Shown: positions 5,182 to 58,784 of the stretch, piece after piece
Layout of the letters: each line of letters opens with the position of its first letter
How positions within the stretch are numbered: position 1 is the stretch's first letter
Source of the DNA: Halogranum gelatinilyticum
Lineage (GTDB): Archaea; Halobacteriota; Halobacteria; Halobacteriales; Haloferacaceae
Direction of reading: 5' to 3'
Assembly (NCBI RefSeq): GCF_900103715.1
Contig: NZ_FNHL01000005.1
Location: 1-64,000, forward strand
DNA: 64,000 bases
Made by a program: the position numbers and the translations under genes
Notes under the pieces: generated by a model
The model's database searches: none
What the model saw: the letters and a program-made list of their open reading frames with translations, nothing else
Told to the model about the DNA's origin: nothing

Positions 5182-5958
5182 CTAATTGTCCAAATCGAGT
5201 GAGGCTGTGGATGTTTCTTCACCTGCGAACGTCTCCAGCAAGTACAGCACGCTAAATCCGAGGTTCTCGTGAATCCACTGCTGGTTCGAGTAGAGATCCG
5301 TGAAGTCGCCGGTGACGAAGTGACTGATGCCGATTTCCTCCTTCAGGAATACCGCATCGCACAATAGCGCGATATCGGCGTTGTTCTTCATTCGGACTGG
5401 CCACTCCTTCAGCCGTCTCTCGACGTCCGGATACTCCCGGTCGCGCACCGGCTCCAGATATACGCGAGCCTCAATCTGATCCTTATTTTTGATCGACCTC
5501 TCCATCAGGACATCTTTCAGCTTTCGAGCGGCCTCACGAGCTGTCCGCCGGGAAATCTCCCCTTCCTTCTCGAAGTGCCATTCAAAATACTTCTGGAGCC
5601 GTGGCCGTACTTCCTTCTCCTCGGACTCCTTCATGTCGAAGCGGTCGACGTACTCGTCCATCACCGTCTCAATGTCGAGCTCGTCGTCACGATAGGTCTG
5701 CAGCTTCTTCCCGAACTGTCGCAGCTTCAATCGGAGCTTTGCCCGCTTCTCCCCATACAGCCCTTCGTCCCGTTCGAGTCGGATGTCAGCGTTTCGTCGA
5801 CTGTTGTGCTCGGTACTTGAACAGTATTCGTAGACTGCGTTCTTCCCGGTATAGATCGTGTTGTCGGTGTCGAACAGGCGTTTGGCTTCGGGGTACCACC
5901 GGTCGTTTAGGAAAGTGAGTCCGAGCAAGCAGTTGGTGTCTACGAAGTACCGAGTCAT
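5182..5958 (-). CDS. PIN-domain ribonuclease, putative VapC-like toxin
   Basis: The 258-residue protein opens with the PIN signature FVDTN (D7), has E44 in AVYEYC, D195 and D201 in NADIALLCDAVF, and D218 in FVTGDFTDL. These four positions fit the metal-binding acidic set of PIN nucleases. It is roughly twice the length of a classical VapC because of a helical, highly charged insert at residues ~60-180. It follows the Panacea-like gene after 12 nt on the same strand, so the two form an operon in antitoxin-toxin order. RNA cleavage and toxicity are inferred from the fold. A 22-residue remnant of a paralog lies at 14014-14085. Confidence 0.75.
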   Translation of the reverse strand: MTRYFVDTNCLLGLTFLNDRWYPEAKRLFDTDNTIYTGKNAVYEYCSSTEHNSRRNADIRLERDEGLYGEKRAKLRLKLRQFGKKLQTYRDDELDIETVMDEYVDRFDMKESEEKEVRPRLQKYFEWHFEKEGEISRRTAREAARKLKDVLMERSIKNKDQIEARVYLEPVRDREYPDVERRLKEWPVRMKNNADIALLCDAVFLKEEIGISHFVTGDFTDLYSNQQWIHENLGFSVLYLLETFAGEETSTASLDLDN

Positions 5959-5970
5959 AGGGAATTGTAG

Positions 5971-6840
5971 TTAAGGGGCGGTGGAGAGTCCGAGAAGGGC
6001 GATTGCAACTCCGTTAGCGGCCTCCGATACTACATCGTTTTCGTCCAAATCTGTGTGTAGGCGGGAGCGTTCTCGTTCGATAAGTTGGAGCTCTTTCCGG
6101 ATGTCGTCTTGTCGGCCTTCGAGATCTTGAGTGTCAAGTTCTTCAGCGATTTCTTCCGGAGTCAGGCCCGTGTTTTCGCGTTGGGCCAAGTCGATGCAAA
6201 AGATGGTCCAGAACAGGTCAGAGACTTTCAGGGCCTTTTGGGGCCTGTATTCTTCTGCGTCAAGTTCAGCGCTTAGAACCGAGTACCAGAGATCGAGATC
6301 CTGCTCAATCCAAGGGTAGTCATCAACTGGGAAGGTATCGATAATATCGAAGACTGTATCCACGACTGCTTCCTGGCTGGAGTCTACCTCAGAATAATCA
6401 GGTTTGTTGTCGATAGCGTCACTGAGTTGTTTGTCGAGTTTTCGGTAGTGGCGCTGGACGTCGTAAGGCGCGTCCTCGTACATTTCATCAGTCAATCCCT
6501 CCGTGTTTTGTTCATATAGCCGATTGAGTGCTCGGGAGAGTGCGAGACGGGCCTTTGTTTCTTCCTCAGGAGGAAGAGAGACCTGGGAAGCTGAAAGGCT
6601 GCACCGAACTTCTCGGGCATCGTCGCTCCAGTCGATTGTAACTGGGGATCCACCAGTCTTCGCCATCGTTCCGAATTTGTACCAGAAATGCTGGATATCG
6701 GTGTCCAACCCTACATCCTCAAGTTCCTTGTCAGCAAAGTAGAGCAGCTTGTAGAAGGTTTTCGGGCGTAGTGGGTTTGAGTAGAATCTTTCATCCAAGA
6801 GAAGGGCCGTTACCTCCCCTACGCTCAGTGTAGAGGTCAT
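5971..6840 (-). CDS. Panacea (DUF4065)-like protein, putative antitoxin
   Basis: The N-terminal ~60 residues (LRPKTFYKLLYFADKELEDVG ... FWYKFGTMAKTGG) resemble the Panacea/SocA domain, whose hallmark is K-LLYFAD followed by an F-x-x-x-YGP-like strand. The remainder (289 residues) is acidic and helical without recognised motifs, perhaps a specificity region. Panacea proteins are known as versatile antitoxins paired with many unrelated toxins. Here the partner is a PIN nuclease encoded 12 nt downstream. The start is ATG 6840, with no alternative nearby. The domain call is by eye and the antitoxin role is inference. Confidence 0.5.
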   Translation of the reverse strand: MTSTLSVGEVTALLLDERFYSNPLRPKTFYKLLYFADKELEDVGLDTDIQHFWYKFGTMAKTGGSPVTIDWSDDAREVRCSLSASQVSLPPEEETKARLALSRALNRLYEQNTEGLTDEMYEDAPYDVQRHYRKLDKQLSDAIDNKPDYSEVDSSQEAVVDTVFDIIDTFPVDDYPWIEQDLDLWYSVLSAELDAEEYRPQKALKVSDLFWTIFCIDLAQRENTGLTPEEIAEELDTQDLEGRQDDIRKELQLIERERSRLHTDLDENDVVSEAANGVAIALLGLSTAP

Positions 6841-7005
6841 ACTTATTCTAAGATATCAACAGCCCATCTAATTACTGTATTGAAAAAGGTGAATCTGAAT
6901 CGTGAAGCTTCAGAAGCACAGCTAGGCATTCTGTTCTTGGTTCGAGTATTGATTGTTCATTACGACGAAATGATTTAGGAACTGTATTGCGAGGTTCAAC
7001 ATAAC
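6841..7005. other. Divergent intergenic region
   Basis: 165 nt, AT-rich, between the divergently transcribed Panacea-like and Argonaute operons. It must hold both promoters. I see no strong operator; the tract around 6870-6885 is the most AT-rich part. Confidence 0.4.
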
Positions 7006-8394
7006 GTGGCGCTCACCAACCTCCTAGGCGAACGCGAAGCCCTCGCGAAAAATTCGGAGATCTACGGTGACAAGGTCCAAGAGTACATGGAGGCGATGGG
7101 GTACTACATCACCGAAACATCGCCTACCCATGGCGGCCTTGTCGATCAGAAATATGAACTCCCAGAGATCAGAGGGGACCGGGAGGTCTGGGTCGAACTC
7201 AAGTGGACGGACCAGCGCCGACACGGGAAGAAATTTCTGGAGGAGATGGGGAAGTACTTCCTCCACTACATGGACCGGCCTCCTGAGAAACGGTTCGACG
7301 TGGCCATCTTCGGGCGGAACCTCGAGAACTTCAACGAGTGGCGGAAAATCTTCGATGTCACCAAGCAGACCGACGAAGCAATCCAAGAGTTCTACGATCG
7401 GGTGTGCGAGAACGACAAACTCTCGGACGACCACCGAAGGAAGATCAAGAGCTATCCGATGGACGACTTCGAGGAGTTTCTGAGTGACACTCACGTCTAC
7501 CAAGCCGACTACGACTCGCTCTTGATGAAGATCGAGGAGTTCGAGAAAGACGACCGGTTCAAACCGGACTTCTTCCAGCGCGAGGCCGAACCAATCACCG
7601 GCAGGACAGAGCTGACCACCAACCTCGTCGAAATAACAGAGTACCCTGAAACGCTGTATATCGGAGACCAGGTGGAGGGAGCGACCCAGGAGGTCGCATT
7701 CAAGCTCAGGCCCTTCACGGTGCCGACGTGGTTCAAGTCGAACAAGGTGTACAGCTTGTTGCCGCCAGAGGATATGCCGAAAGCGGTCAAACAGTTCATC
7801 AACCCGGATACGGTCGAGGAGACCGGGTTCCGGTCGTGGGTAGAGGCCGACCAGAGGAACGCCGATATCGGGAAACGACTGATCCGGGCCGTTGTTCTCT
7901 CCAAGGGTGAAGACCGTGGCTGCATCGCGATAAACTACCGTAGCGACTACCACCTCTACTTCCCGCATGAAGACCCTGACGAGGAAGTACGGAAGGAAGA
8001 GGGCAGACAGGTCACCCGATACTTCGGTGACGGAGACTCTCCATTCTTCCGGCACCACTCACTCCGTATTGGCATCCTCGAATACTCGGGGCAGTACTTC
8101 CTGACCCTGAAGCCAGCGATCCTATTTACCACCAACGGGAAAGAGAACCGGATCACCGGAGAACAAGCCAAGCCATTGCACGACAGGTTCAGTCCCAGCC
8201 GACACGGGAACAACAGGAAAACACGGAGCCGGATCAATCACTGGTGGAAAATCCTGGACTACGGCGACACCAAACAGGACGATCTGGACATCGGGACAGA
8301 ACCCGTGATGCTCGAAGTCAACAAAAGGCCACCCAGAGACACCGACGAACGGGACGGCAGTATGCAGAACAAGTGGCTGGGGGAGTTCCAATGA
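7006..8394 (+). CDS. Nuclease-like / APAZ-like partner of a short Argonaute
   Basis: GTG start at 7006; 462 residues. The N-terminal region has a restriction-endonuclease-type motif, GDREVWVELKW (D58, E64-x-K66), preceded by a helix and G-Y strand (MEAMGYYITETSP), as in Mrr/RecB-like PD-(D/E)XK domains. The C-terminal ~270 residues (starting near TELTTNLVEITEYPETLYI) have the beta-rich look expected of an APAZ domain, the analogue of Ago N-PAZ found only with short Argonautes. Its stop overlaps the ATG of the PIWI gene (ATGA at 8391-8394), so the proteins are co-translated and probably form a heterodimer. I infer that guide-directed target recognition by the PIWI protein activates this nuclease, as in SPARDA-type systems. 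The APAZ assignment rests mainly on context. Confidence 0.6.
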   Translation: MALTNLLGEREALAKNSEIYGDKVQEYMEAMGYYITETSPTHGGLVDQKYELPEIRGDREVWVELKWTDQRRHGKKFLEEMGKYFLHYMDRPPEKRFDVAIFGRNLENFNEWRKIFDVTKQTDEAIQEFYDRVCENDKLSDDHRRKIKSYPMDDFEEFLSDTHVYQADYDSLLMKIEEFEKDDRFKPDFFQREAEPITGRTELTTNLVEITEYPETLYIGDQVEGATQEVAFKLRPFTVPTWFKSNKVYSLLPPEDMPKAVKQFINPDTVEETGFRSWVEADQRNADIGKRLIRAVVLSKGEDRGCIAINYRSDYHLYFPHEDPDEEVRKEEGRQVTRYFGDGDSPFFRHHSLRIGILEYSGQYFLTLKPAILFTTNGKENRITGEQAKPLHDRFSPSRHGNNRKTRSRINHWWKILDYGDTKQDDLDIGTEPVMLEVNKRPPRDTDERDGSMQNKWLGEFQ

Positions 8395-9809
8395 CCGGTT
8401 TCACCGCTGAGGTCCTCGACGAACCCGGCTTGATGTTTGCCGACAGCGAGGAAGCCATCGATCCCCGAGTTGGGCTGATGAAATACGGGCCGAGAACACC
8501 GTCCGGCAAATCCGAGCACCAGGTTATCAACATCGGGTACATCGGGTCTGGTCGGTCTCTCGGCGGCCTTGAGAAACTGTTTAGCGACATGGAGCTGGCG
8601 ATCACCGCGGACGAAGACAAGTCGAAGCGGTGGAAACCACCGTTCCCTGGCCTCGGTGAGCGGTCACCGCTGAACTTCACGTTCAACACGCAGAAGCGGT
8701 GGCGGCAGACGATTACCCGAGGCGAGATACGGGATTTGAAACAGATCCGCAGCCGGAAAGATCGGTTGGAAGAGGCCGTCGAGATCATCAAGATCAACCT
8801 CGAAGTCCTGTACGCCAAGGAGACGCCACCTGACGTCGTGTTCATCGCGATTCCCGAAGCGATGTGGGACGCCTGCACTCCATCCCACCAGGACCATGCC
8901 CGGATGCAGTCAGAGACCAGCGACTTCCACAACCGGATCAAGCTACTAGGGATGGAAGTAGGGTTGCCGACGCAGCTGATGCAGCCGAAGACCCTCCGCG
9001 GTGAGGACGTCCAAGACAAATCCGAAATCGCATGGAACATCGCGGTCGGAACACTCTACAAGGCGCAACGAGGCCATCCTTGGAAGCTAACCGAGTTGGA
9101 GGATGGGACGTGCTTTGCTGGGATTTCCTTCTACAAGGAACGAGGCGGTGACAAATCTCGAACTCGGACTGCGATGGCTCAAGTATTCCTGGAGACAGGG
9201 GAGAACTTCATCCTTCGAGGCGATCCCGTCGAAGGAGAAAAACACGGGCCAGGCAACAACCATCTCGCAGAGGAAGACGCCGAACAGCTAGTCAAAAAAA
9301 TTCTTAGGCATTATCGTAGTCACAAAAAGACAGAACCACGACGGTTGGTACTTCACAAGCGGTCAGAATTCTGGGAAGACGAGCGTGAGGGTTTCATCAA
9401 AGGTGCGGGGAGTATCGAGTTGATGGACTTCGTCACGGTGCGAGAGCGACATCCGGTTCGGGCTTTGAGTTCCGGGATCTATCCGGCACTTCGAGGAACT
9501 ATGCTCTCCGCCCCTAACCACGAAGAACATTACCTGTACACGAAGGGATACATCCCCGCGTTATCGACGTACCCGGCTTCGAATATCCCGGAGCCAATCG
9601 TGGTCAAACCAGATCCAGAGGTCAGTGATTCATCACCGCAAAAGCTGTGTCGGGAAATGCTAGCATTCACGAAGTTGGATTGGAACACGTCGGACTTCTG
9701 CACAAAGCTCCCAGTCACGATTGGGATCTCAGATGCCGTAGGGAACATCCTTGCTGAGGCCGAAGCTCAAAATACTCGTCTAGACATCCATTACTACCAC
9801 TATATGTAG
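8391..9809 (+). CDS. Short prokaryotic Argonaute (MID-PIWI), catalytically inactive
   Basis: The start is ATG 8391, overlapping the preceding stop; a longer frame from 8244 is a shadow of the upstream gene. The 472-residue protein is MID plus PIWI only. The MID pocket residues that hold the guide 5' phosphate are visible: H180 and K184 (HNRIK), Q195 (TQLM) and K224 (TLYK). In PIWI, the first catalytic Asp is replaced: G-I-S246-F-Y where active enzymes have G-x-D. The region after RLVLHK (residue 322 on) also lacks the usual Asp. The C-terminus (PVTIGISDAVGNILAEAEAQ) is PIWI-like. Short Argonautes of this kind bind guide and target but leave killing to the partner. Confident family call; guide type unknown. 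Confidence 0.88.
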   Translation: MTGFTAEVLDEPGLMFADSEEAIDPRVGLMKYGPRTPSGKSEHQVINIGYIGSGRSLGGLEKLFSDMELAITADEDKSKRWKPPFPGLGERSPLNFTFNTQKRWRQTITRGEIRDLKQIRSRKDRLEEAVEIIKINLEVLYAKETPPDVVFIAIPEAMWDACTPSHQDHARMQSETSDFHNRIKLLGMEVGLPTQLMQPKTLRGEDVQDKSEIAWNIAVGTLYKAQRGHPWKLTELEDGTCFAGISFYKERGGDKSRTRTAMAQVFLETGENFILRGDPVEGEKHGPGNNHLAEEDAEQLVKKILRHYRSHKKTEPRRLVLHKRSEFWEDEREGFIKGAGSIELMDFVTVRERHPVRALSSGIYPALRGTMLSAPNHEEHYLYTKGYIPALSTYPASNIPEPIVVKPDPEVSDSSPQKLCREMLAFTKLDWNTSDFCTKLPVTIGISDAVGNILAEAEAQNTRLDIHYYHYM

Positions 9810-9894: not shown

Positions 9895-9924
9895 TTTTTA
9901 TATGCCCCTCGATGGGTGAGGGGC
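9895..9924 (+). promoter_or_regulatory. Leader hairpin element 1 (upstream of TFB)
   Basis: A T-rich box (9895-9903) is followed directly by arms GCCCCTC (9904-9910) and GAGGGGC (9918-9924) around loop GATGGGT. This is one of ten related elements. The start codon is 40 nt downstream. Confidence 0.7.
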
Positions 9925-9963
9925 TCGGTGTTGAGGCGAGTTCCCCGTACTCCGGTGAGACAC

Positions 9964-10890
9964 ATGGCGACGAGAGATATCTACGAAACGAGCTTCGACG
10001 AAGACGTCCAAACGGAATCGAACGCAAACCAATGTCCCGAGTGCAGTGGCCGAGTCACTACCAACTCAGTCGAAACCATCTGTGAGGACTGTGGACTCGT
10101 TATTGACGAACAACGAATCGACCGCGGTCCGGAATGGAGAACTCATGATCAGGACCAGCGAAAGCGAACGGGCGCTCCACTGACTGCAGCACGTCACGAC
10201 CGGGGACTGTCGACGGAGATCGGTCGCAGGAAAGATGCGAACGGAAACGAACTCTCTGGGCAAAAGCGCCAGCGACTGTCCCGAATGCGCCGGGAACAGA
10301 ATCGTGGTCGGTTCCAGTCGAAAGCCGAGCGAAACCTCGCACACGGGCTGGGTGAAGTACGAAGAATCGCCAGCGCCCTCGAGCTTACAGATTCGGTCCG
10401 TGACCAGGCGTGTCAGCTGTTCCGGAGCGCTCAGAACGAAGACCTGCTTCGAGGCCGATCAATCGAGGCAATTGCGGCAGCAAGCGTCCACGGGGCCTGT
10501 CGCTGTAACGGCCACACGCGGTTACTCGACGACGTCGTCGACGCAGCACGCGTCGAACAATCGAGAGTCGCGAATGCGTACAAGACGCTGAATACAGAAC
10601 TTGGGCTCCCGACTCAGCCGGTTCGCCCGAGTGAATACATCCCCCGTCTCGCGTCAGAACTCGATGTTCCAACGTACATCCGACAGCGGGCTCGGAGGTT
10701 GGCTGAACAGTCAGAATCGTCAGGAGCCGCGTCGGGTGTCAAACCGTCAGGATTCGCAGCGGCCTGTTTGTACAAGGCGGGTCGCGAAGAGGGACGGTGG
10801 CTGACGCAGGCGGAAGTGGCGGAGGTGGCGAGCGTCACTGCAACGACCATCCGGTCGCATCGAGACACGCTGAACGAATTGGCGGTCTGA
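9964..10890 (+). CDS. tfb: Transcription initiation factor TFB
   Basis: The start is ATG 9964; the open frame continues to 9916 but would run through the promoter hairpin. The 308-residue protein has the TFIIB layout. An N-terminal zinc ribbon uses CPEC (C24, C27) and CEDC (C41, C44), and is followed by a B-finger region with DRGPEWR. Two cyclin-like repeats follow (about residues 110-200, with LRGRSIEAIAAASVHGACR, and 205-305, with KPSGFAAACLYKAGR). TFB recruits RNA polymerase to TBP-bound promoters by reading the BRE. Haloarchaea have many TFB paralogs, and an element-borne copy could redirect transcription to the element's own promoters. It is preceded by hairpin element 1, so it may belong to the same regulon as its neighbours. 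Confidence 0.93.
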   Translation: MATRDIYETSFDEDVQTESNANQCPECSGRVTTNSVETICEDCGLVIDEQRIDRGPEWRTHDQDQRKRTGAPLTAARHDRGLSTEIGRRKDANGNELSGQKRQRLSRMRREQNRGRFQSKAERNLAHGLGEVRRIASALELTDSVRDQACQLFRSAQNEDLLRGRSIEAIAAASVHGACRCNGHTRLLDDVVDAARVEQSRVANAYKTLNTELGLPTQPVRPSEYIPRLASELDVPTYIRQRARRLAEQSESSGAASGVKPSGFAAACLYKAGREEGRWLTQAEVAEVASVTATTIRSHRDTLNELAV

Positions 10891-10984
10891 AGACGCTGTC
10901 TGCGAGTTCTGTGCCGATTCGAGTTCGGCGTTGGTGGCTGAGATTTAAATACAGAGACGAGGGAAGGTGCTGCCAGACGACTCT

Positions 10985-11869
10985 ATGAATGGACGTCAGT
11001 CTGATTTTGAGGAACTACGACCACTTGGTGAAGCGACTCGCGTTCCCGACGACGAGCTTTCTGGACGAGGGAACGCTGGGCGATCAGAGGGACAGCGAAG
11101 AGAAAGGCCGGATTCGTATCCAGATCGAACGAGATCGACACGGAGCGAATGTTCCTCCTGTGGTGCGTCGATTCCTGCGAACCGTACCAAGTGTCGGTTC
11201 TGCCTCTCGAATCATCTCGATGGAACCACCGACGATAGTCGCACCCCGGATACTGAGTGGACACTACTCCACGTCGTCCATCTGCTCGTCGAAGCGTCGA
11301 CGTTCTACGCCGCCGTCGCGAAAGGTGCTGCTGCAGCCACACTCCTCACGAAGGCTGATAGGGATCCAGTAGTTGACGACTGCCAGCTGCTCTACGACCT
11401 CGATACAAAGCCTGCCGCACAGCTGACCGACAAGTGGCCCTCGCTCCCCGAAGCAGTTCGAGTCACCTCTGAAAGCGGTGAACAGCTACTCACAACCGCT
11501 CGTAAGCGCACGGAACAGACAGAGTCGACGCAGTCGTCGTGTGAGGGGGCGCACACGACGTTCCTCTACGACGAGGGAGGGCACGACGTTAGTGAGGAAA
11601 GTCGGCTTACAGGCTTACTTGAGAAAGCCGAGAGCGACGTCTGGTTAGTGCCAGCGATTGCACTTCAGCGTTCCGTCGACGACGAGCACTCAGAGGATCG
11701 TCGGCCCAACATCCCCTCGAAAACACGTCTTGACTGTCGCAAGTGTGGTCGAACGACCGAGCATCAGTTCCAGGAGTTCGAGTCGCTCCCAGCTGACGAG
11801 TGGTCTGGCCAGCCAATGTGGGAGTGCCAGGTGTGTCAGTCGCCTCGTCACGGACCAGACCCCGAGTAG
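10985..11869 (+). CDS. Zinc-ribbon haloarchaeal protein (294 aa)
   Basis: The start is ATG 10985 (MNGRQSDFEELRPLGEA). Near residue 55 there is a four-Cys finger (CSSCGASIPANRTKCRFC), and near the C-terminus a second set (CRKCGR and CQVCQ). The middle (residues ~90-250) is a mixed alpha/beta domain, with TFLYDEGGHDV and LLEKAESDVWLVPAIAL. That part resembles the C-terminal half of the 163-aa protein at 15259 (FLYDQHATG ... LEESEDLWIVPADVHF). The two therefore share a domain. A TTTAAA box at about 10943 lies ~40 nt upstream. Function unknown. Confidence 0.7.
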   Translation: MNGRQSDFEELRPLGEATRVPDDELSGRGNAGRSEGQRRERPDSYPDRTRSTRSECSSCGASIPANRTKCRFCLSNHLDGTTDDSRTPDTEWTLLHVVHLLVEASTFYAAVAKGAAAATLLTKADRDPVVDDCQLLYDLDTKPAAQLTDKWPSLPEAVRVTSESGEQLLTTARKRTEQTESTQSSCEGAHTTFLYDEGGHDVSEESRLTGLLEKAESDVWLVPAIALQRSVDDEHSEDRRPNIPSKTRLDCRKCGRTTEHQFQEFESLPADEWSGQPMWECQVCQSPRHGPDPE

Positions 11870-12349: not shown

Positions 12350-13978
12350 TCACCGTTTCCATTCATCCTCCCAGTGACCGAGACGCACCGGTGCCAGAAT
12401 CTCATCATCATCGAGATTTTCATTCTTCGCTTGTTCCTCCCACTGGATCGCTAAGGACAGGTAGATGAGAGCTGAGCGAGCCTTCCGCAGGCTCTTAAGA
12501 GATAATTCCTCGAAGTCACTCCGGTATAGTGAAATAGCTAGGTCGTCCCGAAGCCTCGATTCGGCATCAGGACCGACCCACATCGGTTCGTGGAGTTTCA
12601 AGTAACCGTGCTCAAGTTCGTTCCGAGTATCTCTGAGTTCCTTTGCTCCGGGATCCATTGAGGATTCGACGTACATCTCACTGAAGAACTCGAGGTCCTT
12701 ACTCAACCAGAACAATCCTCGAAGTGCCCAGTTCTCATGCCCATCGAATGCAGGTGCTAGCTTGTTCCGCCCCTGGGATTTGTACCAGACGTTCCCGAAG
12801 TTGAGTTTGTGCGAGGGAATGTGAGAGAGGTCGAAGTAGTACTGAATGAAGGAGGCGATTTTGTCAAAGAGCGAGTAGGCCATCCGCATGGCAATCCGGA
12901 CTTTCTCTGCGTTGAACGAGTAGACAGGGTAGTCGAGCGTGTTCTCTAAGCGGACATCCTTATCTGAGAAGTGGGGTTCATCGTTGTAGAGACCCTCATA
13001 GAGGAGGTATCGTGCCGATACATACTCCTGTTTCATTTGATTGTAGAATCCGACGCATGAGACGATTTTGCTGCTCTCTTCGCCGGAGACTGACCCGAGA
13101 TGCAGGATGTCTTGTGCAGCGATGGAGTTCGCTCCGAGATCATTGAGTGGATTCAGAAACAGGGTTTGTTCTAAACACCACTGACGGTACTTCTTTTCCT
13201 CGTCAGAATCACCCAATGAGTACTCCTCAAACTCCATTTCTTCGTCGAGGACGCCGGGTTTGAACTGGTCGGCGATGTGCTGCTGAACGCCCTCAAAGTA
13301 CTCCTTCATCGGGGGGAAGAGGCCGTCAGCTGCTACTGCCTCGTCTAATTGCTCATACGCAGCGCGGAGAAAGGTGGCTGTATGTCCGTTGTCGTAGTGT
13401 GCTCGGGCATAGCTGTGGAAACCGATGCCTTTCTGACCTTTTGCCTGTGCGAAGGCGGGATCAATTTCTAGCGCGTGATTCCAGCAGCGGATAGCCTCAA
13501 CTACACGGCCAACCTCGGAGAGAGCGTTTCCAAGGTTCGTGTAGGTTTTACAGGCCTCGATATCTCTAATTTCCGCGATTCCGTCTGGGTCGAGGGCCAT
13601 TCTGAAGTGGTAGATCTCTTGTTCCAAGTCGTCGTTTTCCCACCACCATGATCCGCTATCAACTGCGTTGAGTCGTCTGAGATGGGAAAATGCGTTACCA
13701 AGATCGTAGTGGATGCGGGACCTGTGTCCTGGTGGTAAGTCGCGATCCAGTAGTTCTTCAGCGAGGTCTATTGCGTGGTTGATCCCGTCTTTTTTGCCTG
13801 TGTCCCCTGATGCATCTACGAGAAGTCCAATTATATTGAGTGCAGGTGCGTCGGCGAAGTCGTCAATAGAGTTGATTGAAAAGAGTTTCTTGTAGACTCC
13901 ATCAGGGTCTGTCACTATTTGTTCGTTCAGTTCGAGGAGGGTTTCATTCGGGTTATCGCCAAGCGGATTGTCAGTCAT
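12350..13978 (-). CDS. TPR repeat protein with C-terminal LA2681-like HEPN domain
   Basis: The 542-residue protein has TPR-like helical repeats in the first ~220 residues (for example TYTNLGNALSEVGRVVEAIR with ALEIDPAFAQAKGQKGIG). The C-terminal third carries a HEPN signature, R452-N-E-L-E-H457 within RDTRNELEHGYLK, the R-x(4-6)-H motif of HEPN ribonucleases. This layout matches LA2681-type HEPN proteins. HEPN proteins of this kind act as RNases in abortive infection or stress. It is a lone gene on the minus strand among plus-strand genes, with no obvious antitoxin next to it. The family call is good; the defence role is inference. Confidence 0.75.
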   Translation of the reverse strand: MTDNPLGDNPNETLLELNEQIVTDPDGVYKKLFSINSIDDFADAPALNIIGLLVDASGDTGKKDGINHAIDLAEELLDRDLPPGHRSRIHYDLGNAFSHLRRLNAVDSGSWWWENDDLEQEIYHFRMALDPDGIAEIRDIEACKTYTNLGNALSEVGRVVEAIRCWNHALEIDPAFAQAKGQKGIGFHSYARAHYDNGHTATFLRAAYEQLDEAVAADGLFPPMKEYFEGVQQHIADQFKPGVLDEEMEFEEYSLGDSDEEKKYRQWCLEQTLFLNPLNDLGANSIAAQDILHLGSVSGEESSKIVSCVGFYNQMKQEYVSARYLLYEGLYNDEPHFSDKDVRLENTLDYPVYSFNAEKVRIAMRMAYSLFDKIASFIQYYFDLSHIPSHKLNFGNVWYKSQGRNKLAPAFDGHENWALRGLFWLSKDLEFFSEMYVESSMDPGAKELRDTRNELEHGYLKLHEPMWVGPDAESRLRDDLAISLYRSDFEELSLKSLRKARSALIYLSLAIQWEEQAKNENLDDDEILAPVRLGHWEDEWKR

Positions 13979-50027: not shown

Positions 50028-52682
50028 ATGTCTAAGCAGGAACATTCTGAGGAATCAGAGGGGCGTTCGGAACTCCCTATCGAGCGTGGTTTTCCGATTG
50101 AGCGGGTAAACGAGATTGCTGCGAATGAAGGGCGGGCCCGGCAGCACTATCGCCCAGTATATACAATGCACAAGTGGTGGGCACGAAGACCGGGTAGTCT
50201 ATTTCGGGCCATTACTCTGTACTCACTATTAGATGATAATACGACTACGGATGATGTTGAGGTCTATGAACCTGGAGATAATCAGACTCTAGGACAGAAT
50301 GGTGTGAGTGAGGACGGGCTGGTAGAGGCAATTAGCAAGGTTTCAATGGAAGATCCGGAGACTCTCTGGGACTTCTATCCAAAGGACGTTCGTATCAAGG
50401 ACAAGAAAATTCTCGACCCATTTATGGGTGGGGGCACATCACTCGTCGAGGCTTCGAGGTTTGGAGTTGACTCGGTTGGTGTTGACCTAAATCCAGTCGC
50501 ATGGTTTGTTACGAAGAAGGAGCTTGAAGCTGGTCAAACAAGCGTAAGTCAACTGGTGGAGGAATTCAATCGGATAAAATCTGATGTTTCGGAAGAAATC
50601 CTAAAATACTACAGAACCCCGTGTCCCAATGGGGACCATGACGCGGATGTAATGTACAACTTTTGGGTGAAAGAACTTGATTGCGTCTCCTGTGGTCACA
50701 CTATTCCACTGTTTAAGGATTACCGAGTTGCTGCTGGCCGCTATGAAAACAAAGGAAAATACAACGTTCTCTGTCCTGGTTGTGATGAACTTACGCTAGT
50801 CGATGACTGGCAGGATGATAGTGTGTGTGACCAGTGTAAACACACATTTGTCCCGAAGGATGGAAGTGTCTCTCGAGGAGGATACTATAACTGCCCTGAA
50901 TGTGGACAGAAAGAATCTGTTACGGACGCAATCGCTGAACTTGGAAAGCCCAACTTAAAACTCTACGCTGTAGAGTATTATTGCCCATCTTGTGACAACT
51001 CAGGCGAAAAGAAGAGTTCCTACAAAGGCTATAAATCCGTAGAAGCAGCTGATCTGCAACTTTTCGAGGAAGCAAAACAAAAGTGGAATACGCGAACTGA
51101 CTTGCACAAATATGTGCCTGATGAAGATATTCCACCGGGCCATATGACTTCTGAACGGAATCCTGTCTTTGACCACGGATATGGGAAATGGACTGATATG
51201 TTCAATGAACGGCAACTTCTGTCGCTATCTACCCTTCTAAAATCGATTGAAAATGTGGATAACCAAAACATCCGTGAATACCTGTTACTGGCTTTTAGTG
51301 AATCTCTCAATTTCAATAATTCATTTACTGGATACCAGGCGAGTACAAACAAAATTCAGCATCTGTTCAAAACGAATTCATTTGATCCGCCCCAGCAACC
51401 CTGTGAGGCGAACCTTTGGGGCACGAAGTATGGGATGGGAAGCTTCCAGAAGACGTTCGAACTCGTGAAGAAGGGGATAGAGTATGCCAATAGTCCTACT
51501 GATCGATATGTAGATAACGGTGACACCGTTGAAACAGAGCAATTTGCTCAACCTATTGGCCTCAATTCAGAAGTCTACCAAGACGACATGAGATCTATAA
51601 CTTCTGAAAATGAGTATGACGCAGTAATTACTGACCCACCATACTACGATAATATCATCTACTCCGAGGTGGCAGATTATTTCTACGTCTGGCAGAAGAT
51701 ATTACTCGAAGGCGAATACGCAGGATTTGATCGCGATAAAACACCGCGTGTAGAATCCATCGTAACAAACCCGTTCTTGGGGAAGACTGCTGAAGACTTC
51801 GAACATGAGATGGGACAGGCCCTCGCAGTCATAAATCGGACACTGAAAAAAGACGGGACCCTCGCATTCACCTACCACCACAGTGATGGTGAGTCCTGGG
51901 GAGAGCTTCTAAAATCGCTCTGTGAAAACGATTTCGAGGTAACGGCAACTTATCCGATCAACTCTGACCTACACAAGTTTATCGGGGGGGAAGCTGTCTC
52001 ATTTGACATCGTAATTGTCGCAAGACCGACTGATAGTCGCACTCCGATCTCGTGGAATCAGCTTCGCCGGCGAATTGTAAAGACCGCACAAGTAGCACGC
52101 GAGACGCTTGAAGAAACCCGAGAACTCACTAGTGGTGATATTGGTGTCATTGAGATGGGGAAATGTTATCAGGAATACTCGAAGCATCATGGTGAGGTTC
52201 GTCGAGCTGGCGAAATCATGAGCGCAAAAGAGGTTGTTCAGGAAATTTACGGAATCATTCAGGAGGGCGAACGGGGTGAGCAAGATGTATATCTCGATCT
52301 CCTGGAAGAGAGGAAGCCCTCGTATAGCGACTTAAACAAGCATCTCAAGCGCTCCGATGCATCCGAAGAGAGGATGAAGGAAATGAGGCTGTTCCGAATG
52401 GAAAGCGGTGATTTCGTACTTTCTGATTGGAACGATGAGAAACGCCAGGCCTACGTTCAGAGTCGTGTAGAAGAAGGTAACGGCGACCTCACGAACCTCG
52501 ATAAAGCTCACTTCCTCCGCTATCGGTATGAGCATGACCGATCCCGTGAAGAATTCCTCAGCAAGTGGGATATGGACAAGCTTCAGGAGCTTTGTGAGGA
52601 TCTTGCCGCAGTTACAGGTGATGAAACATACCTGAAGATGTTAGGCGTCGATACCACTCTCGCGGAAATCTCTGACGAGTAG
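50028..52682 (+). CDS. DUF1156 adenine-specific DNA methyltransferase, copy 1
   Basis: The 884-residue protein starts with the DUF1156 signature LPIERGFPIERVNEIAANEG, then YTMHKWWARRPGSLFRAI. SAM motif I is DPFMGGGTSLVEA, followed by VGVDLNPVAW; the catalytic motif is TDPPYYDN (~residue 530). Between them lies a ~350-residue insert with zinc-ribbon pairs (CVSCGH, CPGCDE, CDQCKH, CPECGQ, CPSCDN), probably for target recognition. This is the PglX-like methylase type of BREX type 3-like systems. Codon use is clearly more AT-rich than in the neighbouring DUF499 gene and in the paralog at 56157, suggesting a separate origin. Confidence 0.88.
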   Translation: MSKQEHSEESEGRSELPIERGFPIERVNEIAANEGRARQHYRPVYTMHKWWARRPGSLFRAITLYSLLDDNTTTDDVEVYEPGDNQTLGQNGVSEDGLVEAISKVSMEDPETLWDFYPKDVRIKDKKILDPFMGGGTSLVEASRFGVDSVGVDLNPVAWFVTKKELEAGQTSVSQLVEEFNRIKSDVSEEILKYYRTPCPNGDHDADVMYNFWVKELDCVSCGHTIPLFKDYRVAAGRYENKGKYNVLCPGCDELTLVDDWQDDSVCDQCKHTFVPKDGSVSRGGYYNCPECGQKESVTDAIAELGKPNLKLYAVEYYCPSCDNSGEKKSSYKGYKSVEAADLQLFEEAKQKWNTRTDLHKYVPDEDIPPGHMTSERNPVFDHGYGKWTDMFNERQLLSLSTLLKSIENVDNQNIREYLLLAFSESLNFNNSFTGYQASTNKIQHLFKTNSFDPPQQPCEANLWGTKYGMGSFQKTFELVKKGIEYANSPTDRYVDNGDTVETEQFAQPIGLNSEVYQDDMRSITSENEYDAVITDPPYYDNIIYSEVADYFYVWQKILLEGEYAGFDRDKTPRVESIVTNPFLGKTAEDFEHEMGQALAVINRTLKKDGTLAFTYHHSDGESWGELLKSLCENDFEVTATYPINSDLHKFIGGEAVSFDIVIVARPTDSRTPISWNQLRRRIVKTAQVARETLEETRELTSGDIGVIEMGKCYQEYSKHHGEVRRAGEIMSAKEVVQEIYGIIQEGERGEQDVYLDLLEERKPSYSDLNKHLKRSDASEERMKEMRLFRMESGDFVLSDWNDEKRQAYVQSRVEEGNGDLTNLDKAHFLRYRYEHDRSREEFLSKWDMDKLQELCEDLAAVTGDETYLKMLGVDTTLAEISDE

Positions 52683-52883
52683 CTGACTAACTAAGAGTTC
52701 CTTTTTTGTGTCCTCAAACTTCCAGACAAAGCTGATAGGCCACCCTCTCCAGGAATAATAACATTACTATGTCTTTAATAACTCAATAGGGACGACAAAT
52801 ACTTGATTGAATGTATTAGTCCCGGCAAATCCGATTTTGAATACGCACTTTGATAAGAGAGTCACCCATCGTGTCAATCATAC
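52683..52883. promoter_or_regulatory. AT-rich promoter region of the DUF499 gene
   Basis: 200 nt, much more AT-rich than the following gene, with a T-run just after the stop of the methyltransferase gene (52700-52706). It probably separates two transcription units: copy 1 alone, and DUF499 with copy 2. Confidence 0.45.
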
Positions 52884-55800
52884 ATGAGCGCGGAAGGAAC
52901 TCGCAAATCCATCGATGATGTTCTGACACTCAGTCCGGAACTCACCGAGGGCGATGGCCTCATCAAGGGCCAGATTCGCCTGTACGACGTCGAAAGCGAC
53001 GCGGAGACGCTCGAATCCGACGCACGGCGGTTCTTCGACCGCACGCTGCTGACGGGCGGACTGGAGGATTCGATGAAGCGCCTCCGGGATACCCTCCAGG
53101 GCGAGGACAACATCCGTCTCCACGAAATGTACGGTCCGTACGGGACCGGGAAGTCCCACCAGATGGTGGCGATGTATCACTGCTTCAAGTCGCCGGACAT
53201 CGTCGGTGACTGGGCCAGTGACCGCATCGAAGGACTCGACGATGTGCTCCCTGAAGACGCACTCCCTGTCGTCGTCTCCCTCCAGAAGCAGCAGTACGAG
53301 TACCTCTGGGAACCGCTCTTCGAGCGCCTGGACTACGAACCGAACGAAGAGGAGTACGACGAGGACGGTGGCTACCCGACGATCGACGTCATTCAGGACG
53401 CCGTTGGCGACCGCACCGTCGCGTTCTTCATGGACGAACTCGAGGACTGGTTCGGCTCGCTCACTGGACGACGCAAGGAGGCGAACCGTGGCTTCCTCCA
53501 GGCGCTCTTCGAGACGACGTCCCGTCCGAACACGGAGTTGTTCGCGTTCGTCTCTGTGCTTCGTGAGGGCTCGGGCGTTCACGACATCCTCGCCCGCGAG
53601 AACGACCGCGTGCAGGTCAACATGTCCAACCAGGTCGACATCAAGGAGGTCCTCCGCCACCGTCTCGTCGACTCCATCGACGACCGCTCGGGTATGCGGG
53701 CGCTCGTTGACCAGTATATCGAGGCGTACGCGGATACGGACTACGTCGACCTCCCGAGCGGGCTTCGCGACGAGATGTACGAGACGTACCCGTTCCACCC
53801 CGTGCTCATCGACTCGATGAAGACGCGGTTCTTCGCTGAAACCGAATCCGGCGCGACTCGCGGGATGCTCTATCTCTTCGCCCGCGTTCTCGTCGACCGG
53901 TTCCAGGAGACCGACCTCATCACCCACGGCGAAGTCGATGCGGTGGACTACAACGACGAACTCACGCGCATCAACGTCGAGCACTCACGAGCGAATTGCT
54001 GTTTCGACGACATCACCGACCGACTCGCTGACGCCGACATCCCGTATGGACGACCCATCCTCAGCACGGTTCTCATCTACTCGCTGACCCCCGGACTCGC
54101 TGAGGGAGCAACGACCTCGGACATCGTCATCGGCACGTACCACGCTGGCGACCGCATCAACGACATCATCGTCGATCTCGAACGGCTGCAGGGAGAGGTC
54201 TACCACCTCTGGCGCTCCGACGACCGCTACGTCATCCGCGAGGACGAAAACCCGCGCTCGCTCGTCAAGAACGCGGCACGTGATGTCGAGGACGACGAGG
54301 CGATGGATCTCATCGGCGACACCGTCGAGAAACTGTTCGGCTCGGGGGCCTATGCAGTCGGATTCAACACCGATGGAACGCTCGAGAGCGTCCCAGACAG
54401 CCAGAATATCAAGGTGGTCGTGAAGAACGGCCCGTGGGATGAGGAGAGCGTTGCAGAGATTATCAAGAACCAGCCAGCTGGCCGTCAGTGGCGCAACACG
54501 CTTGCCTTCGTTCAGCCGAAGAACGGCAAATCCATCTCGCCGACGTCCCAACAAGAGAAGTTCCTCGGGAAGGCGAAGGAGGTCATCGGTGCAGACCTCC
54601 GGAAAGCAGACGAGAACCTCTCCGAAGAGATTCGAGACGACATCGAAGATCTTCACGAAGAGTACGAGGGCGAACTCCTCAAGCGACTGGAGAGCGCGTA
54701 TGGTGAACTCATCGACGGCGACGACCTCCTCAACGAGTTCGACTACGCCGCCGAAATTTCGCTAGAGAATCGGGTCGCAACCGAGCCAGTCCTGAACGCC
54801 AGCAACATCGCTGGTGCAGTCAAAGCAGACCCGTTCGACCTGCAGCGTCACGTCTGGGATATCGTTCAAGACCGCCTCAAAACCCGATCCGAGACGACCA
54901 TCGACGACATCTACGAGCAGTTCCTGATGAGTCCGACGTACCCGATTCCGGGAAGCGTCACGGACATCGTTCAGGCGGTCGAGAACGGATTAGAGGGTAA
55001 GCCTGTTCTCGCACACGATGGGAGCGGTTTCAAAGACGAACTCCGCGGCCTCACACAGGATACGGTGCTCGTTCTTGAGAGCGACGTCGAGAAGTGGTCT
55101 ACTGACGAGGTCGAATCCGAACTCCGCAGTCAGTTCGGTGCGGGTACGAAGGAAGTCGATCTCGGCACGTTCGAACTCGAGCTTCGACAGCGAACGGACG
55201 TGTGGATCTACGACCAGAGCCCCGAGGACGCCGTTAAGATGGCGGCTGGACGACTCGCGAACGCAGATCACTACGTCCTCGTCAGTGGCAGTGAAATCCT
55301 CGACAAAGTCCGCTCCGACGCCACACTCCGCGATGTCTCAGACGCCGAGACGATTGGACCGAACGAGGTTCGATCTCGGATCGAGGAAGCGATTGAGGCT
55401 GCGGGGGAAGCCAACACCAGCCAGGTTCTGACGGCAATCCGTAACGACCCAGAGGTCTATCTCCCGAAGGACGATACCGATTCCGCGTTCCGGAGCGCTG
55501 TTAGCTCGCTCCTCTCGGATGGCTACAAGATCAAGACCGGTGGCGACTACGTCAGTACCCTCGGTGACCGTGAGCCAACGTCTGTCGTCGTCGCACCGAT
55601 GGTTGCCGACGACGTCGGCGAACAAATCTTGGACCATATCCGTGGCCTCGACGAGGAGGAGACGTTCAAGGTTCAGTCGATCCAGACCAACTGCGCACCG
55701 AGCGAGTCCGAGGCTGCAGTCAAGCACTTCCTGCTCGCCAACCTCGGGAAGAGTGACCCTCACTACGTTGTTGGTGCCACCGGCTCAGAAGACCCTGCAG

Positions 55801-56117
55801 ACTGGTTCCCGGGTGCTGGGTTCCGCATCCCACCGGAGGAAGGCTGGACCTTCGAGTATCAGGGCGATAGTCCGGCAGAGATGCGGAAGGAATGGAATGA
55901 CTCCCACGAGTCCGGGTCTGTCTCCTACGGTTCCCTCTCGTTCAACACGAACGGCGACGGTGCTGCACCAGGTGGACTGCAAGGCATCGCGGAATTCCAG
56001 CTGGCACACGCAGACCTTCAGCTCGAACTCGGTCAGTCCCACGAGGTCGTCGCCGACATCCTTGAGAACATCCCGGAGGCCGCTACTGGCATCGACATCA
56101 CCATCCAGTTCGAATGA
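52884..56117 (+). CDS. DUF499 (BrxC/PglY-like) P-loop ATPase
   Basis: The 1,077-residue protein has an N-terminal ATPase with Walker A GPYGTGKSHQM (~residue 82) inside LHEMYGPYGTGKS and a likely Walker B VAFFMDELEDW. The long C-terminal part is helical with DUF499-like order (STVLIYSLTPGLAEGATTSD, VKNGPWDEESVAEI). DUF499 ATPases are the BrxC/PglY component of BREX systems, large DNA-associated ATPases that act with the methyltransferase to block phage replication. It lies between two DUF1156 methyltransferase genes, 39 nt before the second. Very GC-rich codon use fits the host. Confidence 0.85.
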   Translation: MSAEGTRKSIDDVLTLSPELTEGDGLIKGQIRLYDVESDAETLESDARRFFDRTLLTGGLEDSMKRLRDTLQGEDNIRLHEMYGPYGTGKSHQMVAMYHCFKSPDIVGDWASDRIEGLDDVLPEDALPVVVSLQKQQYEYLWEPLFERLDYEPNEEEYDEDGGYPTIDVIQDAVGDRTVAFFMDELEDWFGSLTGRRKEANRGFLQALFETTSRPNTELFAFVSVLREGSGVHDILARENDRVQVNMSNQVDIKEVLRHRLVDSIDDRSGMRALVDQYIEAYADTDYVDLPSGLRDEMYETYPFHPVLIDSMKTRFFAETESGATRGMLYLFARVLVDRFQETDLITHGEVDAVDYNDELTRINVEHSRANCCFDDITDRLADADIPYGRPILSTVLIYSLTPGLAEGATTSDIVIGTYHAGDRINDIIVDLERLQGEVYHLWRSDDRYVIREDENPRSLVKNAARDVEDDEAMDLIGDTVEKLFGSGAYAVGFNTDGTLESVPDSQNIKVVVKNGPWDEESVAEIIKNQPAGRQWRNTLAFVQPKNGKSISPTSQQEKFLGKAKEVIGADLRKADENLSEEIRDDIEDLHEEYEGELLKRLESAYGELIDGDDLLNEFDYAAEISLENRVATEPVLNASNIAGAVKADPFDLQRHVWDIVQDRLKTRSETTIDDIYEQFLMSPTYPIPGSVTDIVQAVENGLEGKPVLAHDGSGFKDELRGLTQDTVLVLESDVEKWSTDEVESELRSQFGAGTKEVDLGTFELELRQRTDVWIYDQSPEDAVKMAAGRLANADHYVLVSGSEILDKVRSDATLRDVSDAETIGPNEVRSRIEEAIEAAGEANTSQVLTAIRNDPEVYLPKDDTDSAFRSAVSSLLSDGYKIKTGGDYVSTLGDREPTSVVVAPMVADDVGEQILDHIRGLDEEETFKVQSIQTNCAPSESEAAVKHFLLANLGKSDPHYVVGATGSEDPADWFPGAGFRIPPEEGWTFEYQGDSPAEMRKEWNDSHESGSVSYGSLSFNTNGDGAAPGGLQGIAEFQLAHADLQLELGQSHEVVADILENIPEAATGIDITIQFE

Positions 56118-56156
56118 CGCACACGTTCAAATATCAAGACGAAGCCACCACCCACC

Positions 56157-58784
56157 ATGCCTGACCCAGACGTGGATTCGCGGGAAGAGCTCCCCATCGA
56201 GCGTGGCTTCCCCATCGAGCAAGTGAATGACCTTGCTGACCGCGAAGGGCGGGCTAAACTCTACTACCGCCCTCTTTCCACGATGCACAAATGGTGGGCT
56301 AGACAGCTTGGGAGCGTCTTCAGAGCGATTTCGCTCTACACATTAGTCGACGACCCGTCTTCAGTCGACGTCCGAGAGCCCGGAAAAGAGGAGATGAATC
56401 TCTCTGATTTCGCGGAGGGTACTGAGAAATCCTCTACCGAAGCTGATCTCTCGCAGCTCGTCGATGCCGTCAGTCTACAAAATCCCGACGCTCTCTGGAG
56501 TCTGTATCCGAAGGACGTCGGCGTGAGCGACAAGACCGTCCTCGACCCGTTCATGGGTGGCGGAACAAGCCTCATGGAAGCGATTCGGTTCGGTGCAGAC
56601 GTCACTGGCGTCGACCTGAACCCTGTCGCGTGGTTCATAACGAAGAAGGAAATGGAGGCCCACGAGATAGACCCTGATGAGCTTCAACAGGCCTTCGAGG
56701 ATGTGCGGGATGAAGTAGCAGAGGAGCTCAAATCGCACTATCAAACAGCGTGCCCTCACGACGACGCCCATGTCGCTGATATCATGTACGCGCTCTGGGT
56801 ACGGAAGTTAGACTGCACGTCTTGTGGTGAGACGATCCCTCTGTTCAAAGACTATCGAGTTGCGAACGGACGATACGAAAACGACGACAAGTACAACGTC
56901 TACTGCCCCGAATGCGAGTCGGTCTTTTTGACCGATGATTACCGGTCTGAGTCGACCTGTACGGAGTGTGGGCATGAGTATATCCCAGCAAACGGGCCGG
57001 TGTCACGTGGGGGTAACTACGGCTGTCCCTCCTGTGGACTCAAATACTCCATCGTTGATGCTATCGCTGACGGTCAGTCTTACTCTGAAGACCTCTACGC
57101 TATCGAATACTACTGTACGAGCTGCGACGACGAAGGGAAAGAACGGTCGACCGTCAAGGGCTACAAAGCGGCCACTGACGAGGACTTGGCCCAGTTCACC
57201 CACGCGAAGGACCAGTGGGAGGCTTCTGAGACGCTAGGTGAGTATGCACCTGATGGTGATATCCCTGAAGGAGCCATTACAGCTGCTTCTCGGATCAACG
57301 GCAACGACGTGTTCAGCCACGGCTACAAAACGTGGCAGGATATGTTCAACCCACGTCAACTCTACTGCCTCTCCACCCTTCTCTCAGCAATAGATACAAT
57401 CGAAAATCAGCAGATCAAGGAGTATCTGCTCCTTGCGTTCAGTGATTCACTCATGTTCCAGAACAACTTCGCTCTCTACAGTATATCTGGAACAAAGATC
57501 GAGGGCATCTTCAGACAGAATTCGTACACGCCACTTGTCGAATACGCTGAAAACAACGTCTGGGGTACGAGGGCTGGACGTGGGACATTCCAGAACACAT
57601 GGGAGAAGATTGTCGACGCCGTCGAGTTCGCTCACTACCCAACGGAACGGTATCTGGAAGACGGGGAGCTCAAGCAAACAGACCCGTTCGAGACCCCTGT
57701 TGGTGGAGACTACACCCTACTGCAAGGAGATGTTCGAGAAGTCGATCTCGAGACGGACTATGATGCCATCATCACTGACCCACCGTATTATGACAATGTG
57801 ATCTACTCTGAGGTTTCAGACTTCTTCTACGCATGGCAACGGCTCCTCTTAGCTGATGAGTACCCTTGCTTTGACGCTGAAAACACCCCTCGACAGAAGA
57901 GTGTCGTCGCAAACCCTGCTGTGAATAAGGACGACACCAGCTTCGAGGCAGAGATCAAACAGTCGTTCTCGCGATTGCGAACGGTGTTGAAGGACGATGG
58001 CGTTCTCGTGTTCACGTACCGTCACGGAGGGAAGAAGTCCTGGGGAGCGCTGTTACAGTCGCTGTGCGATGAAGGGTTTGACGTCACAGCAACGTATCCG
58101 ATTTCAGCAAACCTCAGCGAGTTCGTAATGGGGGAGGGACTCAGTTTCAGCGTCATCGTCGTTGCTCGTCCTGCAGGAAAGCGCGAACCAGTTAGCTGGT
58201 CCTCTCTACGGCGACGAATGCACAGAGAAGCACGTCAGGCCCGAGAGAACATACGAGAGGGTCAAACCCTATCTGAGGGAGACATCAGTGTTGTCGAGCT
58301 TGGCCGATGTTTCCGTGAATACTCCAAGCACCACAAAAAAGTTCATCGAGAAGGGGCCGTGATGAACGCCACCGAAGTCGTTGAACAAATATACGATATC
58401 ATCGCTGGAGACGTCACTCCTGACCAGATTTACCTCGATCTATTAGCAATGGAAGCACCCACGATCGAGGATGTAACCCGCCTCTGCCGGGGTACGAACG
58501 TCAAACCCGCTGACCTACGTAGCCGGGCGCTTTTCGATCCAGAGCCCGAATTCAAATTGGCTCGATGGGACGATGAGAAACGCCTCGCCTATCTCAAGGA
58601 GAAGACTGTGGACTCGCTCTCTGCCTTGGAGAGAGTACAGCTCCTTCGGTACGAAGCGGCTCAAGAGACATCGACGATAGAGAAACTTCGCGGGATGGAA
58701 GTCACTGGGGCGATGCTCGACGTAGCAACAGACCTTGCGAATCTCACTGGTGATGAGGAATATCGTCGGCTCTTGAGGGACTAA
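56157..58784 (+). CDS. DUF1156 adenine-specific DNA methyltransferase, copy 2
   Basis: The 875-residue paralog of the gene at 50028 shares nearly all motifs: LPIERGFPIEQVNDLADREG, STMHKWWARQLGSVFRAI, DPFMGGGTSLMEA, TGVDLNPVAW, TDPPYYDN and the zinc-ribbon insert (CTSCGE, CPECES, CTECGH, CPSCGL, CTSCDD). It follows the DUF499 gene by 39 nt, so they are co-transcribed. The two copies differ throughout, especially at the ends and in base composition, so they are not a recent tandem duplication. They may recognise different sequences or form a heterodimer. Confidence 0.88.
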   Translation: MPDPDVDSREELPIERGFPIEQVNDLADREGRAKLYYRPLSTMHKWWARQLGSVFRAISLYTLVDDPSSVDVREPGKEEMNLSDFAEGTEKSSTEADLSQLVDAVSLQNPDALWSLYPKDVGVSDKTVLDPFMGGGTSLMEAIRFGADVTGVDLNPVAWFITKKEMEAHEIDPDELQQAFEDVRDEVAEELKSHYQTACPHDDAHVADIMYALWVRKLDCTSCGETIPLFKDYRVANGRYENDDKYNVYCPECESVFLTDDYRSESTCTECGHEYIPANGPVSRGGNYGCPSCGLKYSIVDAIADGQSYSEDLYAIEYYCTSCDDEGKERSTVKGYKAATDEDLAQFTHAKDQWEASETLGEYAPDGDIPEGAITAASRINGNDVFSHGYKTWQDMFNPRQLYCLSTLLSAIDTIENQQIKEYLLLAFSDSLMFQNNFALYSISGTKIEGIFRQNSYTPLVEYAENNVWGTRAGRGTFQNTWEKIVDAVEFAHYPTERYLEDGELKQTDPFETPVGGDYTLLQGDVREVDLETDYDAIITDPPYYDNVIYSEVSDFFYAWQRLLLADEYPCFDAENTPRQKSVVANPAVNKDDTSFEAEIKQSFSRLRTVLKDDGVLVFTYRHGGKKSWGALLQSLCDEGFDVTATYPISANLSEFVMGEGLSFSVIVVARPAGKREPVSWSSLRRRMHREARQARENIREGQTLSEGDISVVELGRCFREYSKHHKKVHREGAVMNATEVVEQIYDIIAGDVTPDQIYLDLLAMEAPTIEDVTRLCRGTNVKPADLRSRALFDPEPEFKLARWDDEKRLAYLKEKTVDSLSALERVQLLRYEAAQETSTIEKLRGMEVTGAMLDVATDLANLTGDEEYRRLLRD

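Follow-up and report, generated by a model that had tools for sequence, protein, structure and literature searches.

The short Argonaute gene and its REase-APAZ partner in Halogranum gelatinilyticum belong to a mobile four-gene cassette that is inherited as one unit, in which the genes for a Panacea-like protein and a PIN protein are the real novelty (Table 1; 'the window' denotes the whole stretch analysed, positions 1 to 64,000 of contig NZ_FNHL01000005.1). Short Argonaute systems have been described as two-gene units; in the archaeal lineage found here the pair is always accompanied by two extra genes of toxin-antitoxin type, in a 4.6-kb cassette that moves between haloarchaeal genera. No description of Panacea or PIN genes joined with short Argonautes was found in the openly accessible literature searched. 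On balance, we favour reading the cassette as a haloarchaeal immunity system that would combine an RNA-guided, DNA-triggered nuclease with a second effector or guard of toxin-antitoxin type. The wider proposal, that a dedicated Panacea-PIN clade serves as a working part (guard or second effector) of haloarchaeal Argonaute immunity in two unrelated Argonaute classes, and would thus represent the first toxin-antitoxin-coupled Argonaute system, is put forward tentatively, with the case for it falling just short of even. The initial annotation had covered positions 7006-9809 as a short, dead Argonaute with a nuclease-APAZ partner; both genes are real and this description is supported, but this span is only part of the conserved unit (5182-9809), and the accessory genes had been missed.

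Table 1. Features of the four-gene cassette, in window coordinates
Feature	Position	Strand	Basis
Whole four-gene transfer unit	5182..9809	.	DNA similarity edges in L048 and L033
PIN-domain nuclease gene, 258 aa, second of divergent pair	5182..5958	-	Pfam PIN, conserved acids, 34/34 loci
Panacea-like (putative antitoxin) gene, 289 aa, first of divergent pair	5971..6840	-	hhalign, 34/34 loci
Divergent intergenic region, direct repeat ACTGTATTG	6841..7005	.	Sequence comparison
REase-APAZ partner, 462 aa, GTG start	7006..8394	+	PADLOC PDLC02417 Aga_REase_Archaea
PD-(D/E)XK-like nuclease domain, residues 1-180	7006..7545	+	AlphaFold2 topology, invariant residues
APAZ domain, residues 195-447	7588..8346	+	Profile, fold and hhalign matches
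Short Argonaute (MID-PIWI), 472 aa, ATG 8391, predicted catalytically dead	8391..9809	+	PADLOC pAgo_I, PDB match

The REase-APAZ partner was found in 33 of the 391 haloarchaeal genomes searched, at 34 loci. Every locus carried both a Panacea-like and a PIN gene, and at 33 the complete set of four shared one divergent arrangement. The exception (L078) was a decayed locus from which the Argonaute was absent, and where the Panacea gene was frameshifted with an intact PIN gene alongside. Conversely, profile searches of the 391 haloarchaeal genomes with the Panacea-like and PIN proteins returned full-length, high-scoring copies only at these 34 loci and two more. Trees of the nuclease domain, the APAZ domain, the Argonaute, the PIN protein and the Panacea-like protein contained the same four clades, and pairwise distance correlations among the cassette genes ranged from 0.87 to 0.96 (Mantel p at its floor, with 0 of 2000 permutations reaching the observed values). 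As these clades mix taxonomic families, they reflect transfer, not the descent of the species. Similarity at the DNA level to the window was confined to positions 5185-9807 (91.7%) in Haloferax marisrubri (L048) and to 5216-9809 (85.3%) on a Halorarius plasmid (L033), which places the edges of the cassette at the stop codons of the PIN and Argonaute genes; other near-identical copies share flanking plasmid genes as well, at lower identity. Many copies are located on plasmids. The window, part of a 214,766-base contig, encodes ParA and a protein of Orc1/Cdc6 type, and for this reason probably belongs to a plasmid or secondary replicon. That the Argonaute and its partner form a bare two-gene system with chance neighbours upstream would agree with the absence of the Panacea-PIN pair from methanogen relatives (see below), but the occurrence of the pair at all 34 loci, its divergent layout at 33, the edges of the unit at 5182 and 9809 and the congruent trees leave this explanation with hardly any credibility.

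Within the cassette, the Panacea-like gene is followed after 12 bp by the PIN gene, and the ORFs of the partner and the Argonaute overlap by 4 bp (ATGA), an operonic arrangement for an APAZ partner. Two copies of the direct repeat ACTGTATTG (6874-6882 and 6981-6989) flank the divergent promoter region on both sides, the first being conserved in near relatives and the second partly so; the region may have a regulatory role, as a putative two-way promoter or operator. In the majority of near-identical plasmid copies, a TFIIB-like gene (9916-10890) adjoins the cassette, at 70-80% identity compared with 91-97% for the cassette proteins. This TFB gene, an OB-fold gene and the gene at 10967-11869 were rejected as members of the system, since they occur only beside near-identical plasmid copies and are far less conserved.

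The partner matched the PADLOC model PDLC02417 (Aga_REase_Archaea) over model positions 1-412 of 416 (E 8.2e-163), showing that the partner/Argonaute pair is already catalogued; taken alone, it adds a member to the known short-Argonaute systems with nuclease-APAZ partners. Pfam recognised no domain in the partner, and a PDB search with the single sequence gave no match, so that a family profile was needed. Among PADLOC models, those for REase, SIR2 and TIR partners were matched in their APAZ parts by residues 188-424 (1e-17 to 1e-5), and a 21-member partner profile (positions 195-458) matched APAZ chains of known structure from DUF4365, HNH and DREN systems (9qbl, 9om4 and 9jsb; 7.5e-10 to 1.5e-8), in addition to which the APAZ region aligned with a bacterial DUF4365-APAZ alignment (hhalign 98.9%, 2.9e-17). 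An AlphaFold2 model of the partner (mean pLDDT 73.6, with low confidence for residues 1-60) superimposed through residues 198-440 on XauSPARDA (9qcc_A) with a VIA Z score of 19.1 (rmsd 3.2 over 225 residues); the APAZ fold also resembled those of SPARHA (Z 16.7), SPARTA (about 16) and SPARSA (13-14), and residues 195-447 aligned with SPARDA APAZ domains at Z 16-19. By sequence profile and by predicted fold, the C-terminal half is thus an APAZ domain beyond reasonable doubt, an identity that the initial annotation had only inferred, and for which its stated refutation, a failure of this half to model as APAZ, does not hold.

In the N-terminal part of the partner, the AlphaFold2 model gave the order H16-30, E34-38, E48-51, E60-70, H75-90 and E98-106, residues 1-60 being of low confidence. 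This points to a PD-(D/E)XK topology with a conserved D...[E/Q]xK motif, again subject to the low confidence of residues 1-60. A D...E-x-K nuclease motif had been placed here earlier, and its residues D47 (7144-7146), E64 (7195-7197) and K66 (7201-7203) proved invariant in 21 relatives of 22-94% identity, as did E11, Y20 and E80 (21 aligned relatives). D47, E64 and K66 are accordingly regarded as candidate catalytic residues on the strength of this conservation. None of the 21 family members gave a DUF4365 match in Pfam, and the alignment of the N-terminal domain with DUF4365 was marginal (hhalign 2%, E 0.024), with the D and ExK positions nevertheless in register. Assignments as SMEK or TIR domain were discarded, as no similarity to either was found by hhalign. 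The suggestion of a possible new subtype was not supported as stated, the nuclease domain not being of a new type: its predicted topology is that of DREN/DUF4365, and the family has its own model in PADLOC. What the uncharacterised archaeal REase-APAZ family gains is a defined nuclease domain, as predicted here, together with candidate active-site residues.

The Argonaute matched PADLOC pAgo_I (E 8.8e-145) and has SPARHA, SPARDA and SPARTA as its nearest solved relatives, the best PDB match being the SPARHA chain 9om4_B (4.3e-72), with SPARDA chains at about 1e-60 to 1e-67. It consists of MID and PIWI domains only, as in other short pAgos, and has lost the catalytic tetrad. As had been reported for this gene from its sequence, the first catalytic Asp is replaced by Ser in the motif GISFY (Ser246, 9126-9128), and the MID residues for guide binding are retained. 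Ser is present at position 246 in all 21 Argonautes of the family and is shared by the majority of the bacterial DUF4365/SMEK short Argonautes in the comparison; it is consequently a feature of the class and not special to this system. Lys323, invariant in the 21 family Argonautes, occupies by our reading the position at which a later catalytic Asp would be expected. The MID residues K184, Q195, N216 and K224, also invariant, align with K187, Q198, N232 and K240 of NbaAgo, where K187 and K240 anchor the guide by its 5' phosphate and N232 contacts its second base (PMC12205087). The sequence therefore indicates a catalytically dead Argonaute with a preserved guide pocket, and the correspondence of the pocket residues with those of NbaAgo makes an RNA guide likely.

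Solved APAZ-nuclease relatives are RNA-guided, DNA-triggered collateral nucleases that cause cell death or dormancy (PMC12205087, PMC10810196). By homology with these, the pair in the window would have guide-triggered collateral nuclease activity, and the guide-triggered nuclease predicted at the outset is in keeping with their behaviour. In the rightward arm of the proposed mechanism, the short Argonaute would bind a guide, most likely RNA, and assemble with the REase-APAZ protein into a heterodimer; pairing of the guide with invader DNA would activate the PD-(D/E)XK domain, which would then cut DNA without sequence preference and leave the cell killed or arrested. If, instead, the REase domain cut only the guide-matched target or nicked locally, plasmids would be cleared and the cell would survive. 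The presence of E64 where DREN has Gln and the marginal similarity of the N-terminal domain to DREN leave room for a different regulation of this kind, but it is improbable given that solved APAZ-nuclease relatives, once activated, do not discriminate between nucleic acids (PMC12205087, PMC10810196) and that the APAZ and Argonaute parts are homologous to those of the solved relatives.

None of the 21 Panacea-like family members reached the Pfam cut-off for Panacea (PF13274), but a 35-member profile of the family aligned with haloarchaeal SocA_Panacea sequences (hhalign 91-93%, E 3e-7 to 8e-7), with the match falling in the KLLYxxD...WYxxG core. The GPV signature, which is critical for neutralisation by Panacea (PMC8832971), is found in the stand-alone relatives L086 and L089, and the window copy has FGT. 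A predicted structure of the Panacea-like protein (pLDDT 88.5) had no confident Foldseek match in the PDB, where no solved structure fitted the whole model; a likeness to a DarTG chain (VIA Z 8.8 over 118 residues) was too weak to be used, and Pfam at a loose threshold returned only noise for the stand-alone relatives. Twelve of the 22 PIN family members were recognised by Pfam PIN (best 9.8e-5), the window copy lying under the cut-off (0.025), and the four acidic residues of a PIN active site (D7, E44, D195 and D218) are conserved, by which sequence features the product is taken to be a PIN protein. Distant Panacea-like relatives stand without an Argonaute of the family nearby, and 11 of 12 of these were directly followed by a PIN relative, as iterated profiles confirmed, which is a toxin-antitoxin layout. 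In known Panacea (DUF4065/SocA) toxin-antitoxin systems, likewise, an antitoxin-like gene directly precedes a toxin-like one (PMC8832971); the window copy, a remote profile match to these, differs in falling below the Pfam cut-off, in its longer C-terminal helical part, in the FGT for GPV and in its coupling to an Argonaute. All Argonaute-linked Panacea proteins formed one clade apart from the stand-alone ones (support 100/99).

Gene order and homology suggest antitoxin and toxin roles for the Panacea-like and PIN proteins, respectively, as well as a coupling of the two arms. In the leftward arm, the Panacea-like antitoxin would restrain the PIN ribonuclease; the antitoxin could run short when the replicon is degraded or disturbed by the first arm, or when a virus blocks gene expression, and the freed PIN toxin would then complete the arrest. 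The pair would also make loss of the cassette costly. Two loci (L065 and L067) have a broken Argonaute next to intact Panacea and PIN genes, which argues against the Argonaute itself restraining PIN, and an Argonaute-dependent repression of PIN, similar to CreTA, was dropped for this reason. The intact PIN gene beside a frameshifted Panacea gene at L078 and the Panacea match short of the Pfam cut-off also count against the proposed mechanism.

Five relatives of the REase-APAZ/Argonaute pair, placed outside the haloarchaeal class and, from this placement and their gene content, apparently methanogen, had neither a Panacea nor a PIN gene, so the first arm can exist without the second. With the haloarchaeal Argonautes forming one clade (96/94) nested among those of the methanogen relatives, the Panacea-PIN pair was most simply gained on the haloarchaeal branch. 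No Panacea-PIN pair was present at the bacterial DUF4365, SMEK and TIR loci examined either. The same Panacea-PIN clade was encountered at two loci with a split Argonaute of SiAgo-like, pseudo-short type, L079:3444-8903 (G101) and L080:3623-9021 (G288), where all genes are on one strand in the order Panacea-like, PIN, a 331-332-aa gene, a 436-aa MID-PIWI gene and a 432-438-aa gene. The 331-332-aa protein, the product of a separate N-L1-L2-like gene, shows weak similarity to long Argonautes in their N-terminal half; the 432-438-aa protein has a hydrophobic C-terminal part, putatively a membrane-spanning end. Both genes set L079 and L080 apart from the window system, to whose Argonaute class theirs is unrelated. 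This split Argonaute was found at no other locus in the 302 haloarchaeal genomes searched. One Panacea-PIN clade is therefore shared by two unrelated Argonaute classes.

These distributions bear on two other roles for the pair. It could do no more than act as an addiction module, holding the Argonaute genes on plasmids without taking part in immunity, as might be suspected from the stand-alone Panacea-PIN pairs, the methanogen systems that manage without one, the many plasmid-borne copies and the pairs left intact next to broken Argonautes. This is a serious but unlikely alternative, because the Argonaute-linked pairs constitute a single clade separate from the stand-alone ones and common to two unrelated Argonaute classes, and because they have been co-inherited for long with no swap for other toxin-antitoxin pairs. 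Alternatively, PIN might make or trim the guide RNAs of the Argonaute, with the Panacea-like protein as specificity or control subunit. Little is known, to our knowledge, about where the guides of short Argonautes come from, and the strict linkage of the pair to Argonaute loci of two classes and the conserved PIN active site would fit it; however, methanogen and bacterial relatives are conserved without PIN, homologous pairs exist with no Argonaute nearby, and the Panacea-like gene belongs to an antitoxin-like family, which together make a function in guide production decidedly improbable. We thus retain the guard or second effector as the preferred role of the pair.

Among known systems, the closest is SPARDA (NbaSPARDA, XauSPARDA, TmuRE-Ago), which also consists of a short dead Argonaute and an adjacent PD-(D/E)XK-APAZ protein with a D...[E/Q]xK layout, and whose APAZ (the Z of 19.1 above) and Argonaute are homologous to those in the window. 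In contrast to SPARDA, the nuclease domain in the window is not recognised as DUF4365 and has Glu (E64) for the Gln of DREN at the metal site, the Argonaute is in a separate archaeal clade, and two extra divergent genes are present. SPARHA, the closest solved system by Argonaute sequence, differs in being bacterial and in its HNH effector. We know of no Panacea-PIN pair with SPARHA. The window partner's own family, Aga_REase_Archaea (PDLC02417), is probably the APAZ group III of Ryazansky et al. (2018), an archaeal group that lies far from other APAZ, was found together with pAgos and was described as APAZ only (PMC6299218); compared with that description, a nuclease domain and the Panacea-PIN pair are added here. 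CreTA, an RNA pair under Cascade repression that guards CRISPR-Cas in haloarchaea and bacteria (PMC9458426, PMC10097628), likewise couples toxin and antitoxin to an immune system, but the pair in the window is made up of two proteins and is kept at loci with broken Argonautes. The cassette makes it testable whether toxin-antitoxin pairs guard or back up Argonaute immunity, as they do CRISPR.

Several further loci were recorded. On plasmid pHLAC01 of Halorubrum lacusprofundi (L041:5850-7425), an intact Argonaute is accompanied by about 40 remaining residues of the partner and by no Panacea or PIN gene; L065, apparently from the same organism, is a second copy and is likewise broken. At L121:7760-16876 (G610), an insertion of about 8 kb interrupts an archaeal REase-APAZ gene, with two ORFs on the flanks that share identical first 70 residues and are probable transposases. 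Outside the haloarchaea, a REase-APAZ/Argonaute pair is followed about 1.4 kb downstream by a different PIN gene (PF01850, 3.4e-8; L123:3908-4438, G665). At L124:2755-5704 (G621), a gene immediately preceding a short Argonaute joins a Schlafen AlbA_2 domain (PF04326, 1.4e-11) to an APAZ-like half; no description of this type of effector was found in the short-Argonaute literature surveyed. In the window itself, two DUF1156 methylase-like genes flank a DUF499 ATPase-like gene at 50028-58781, with weak HmaB/HmaC matches, possibly constituting a second defence locus on the same replicon, and positions 12350-13978 encode a TPR protein with an LA2681-like HEPN domain (PF18733, 2.9e-77), a possible ribonuclease.
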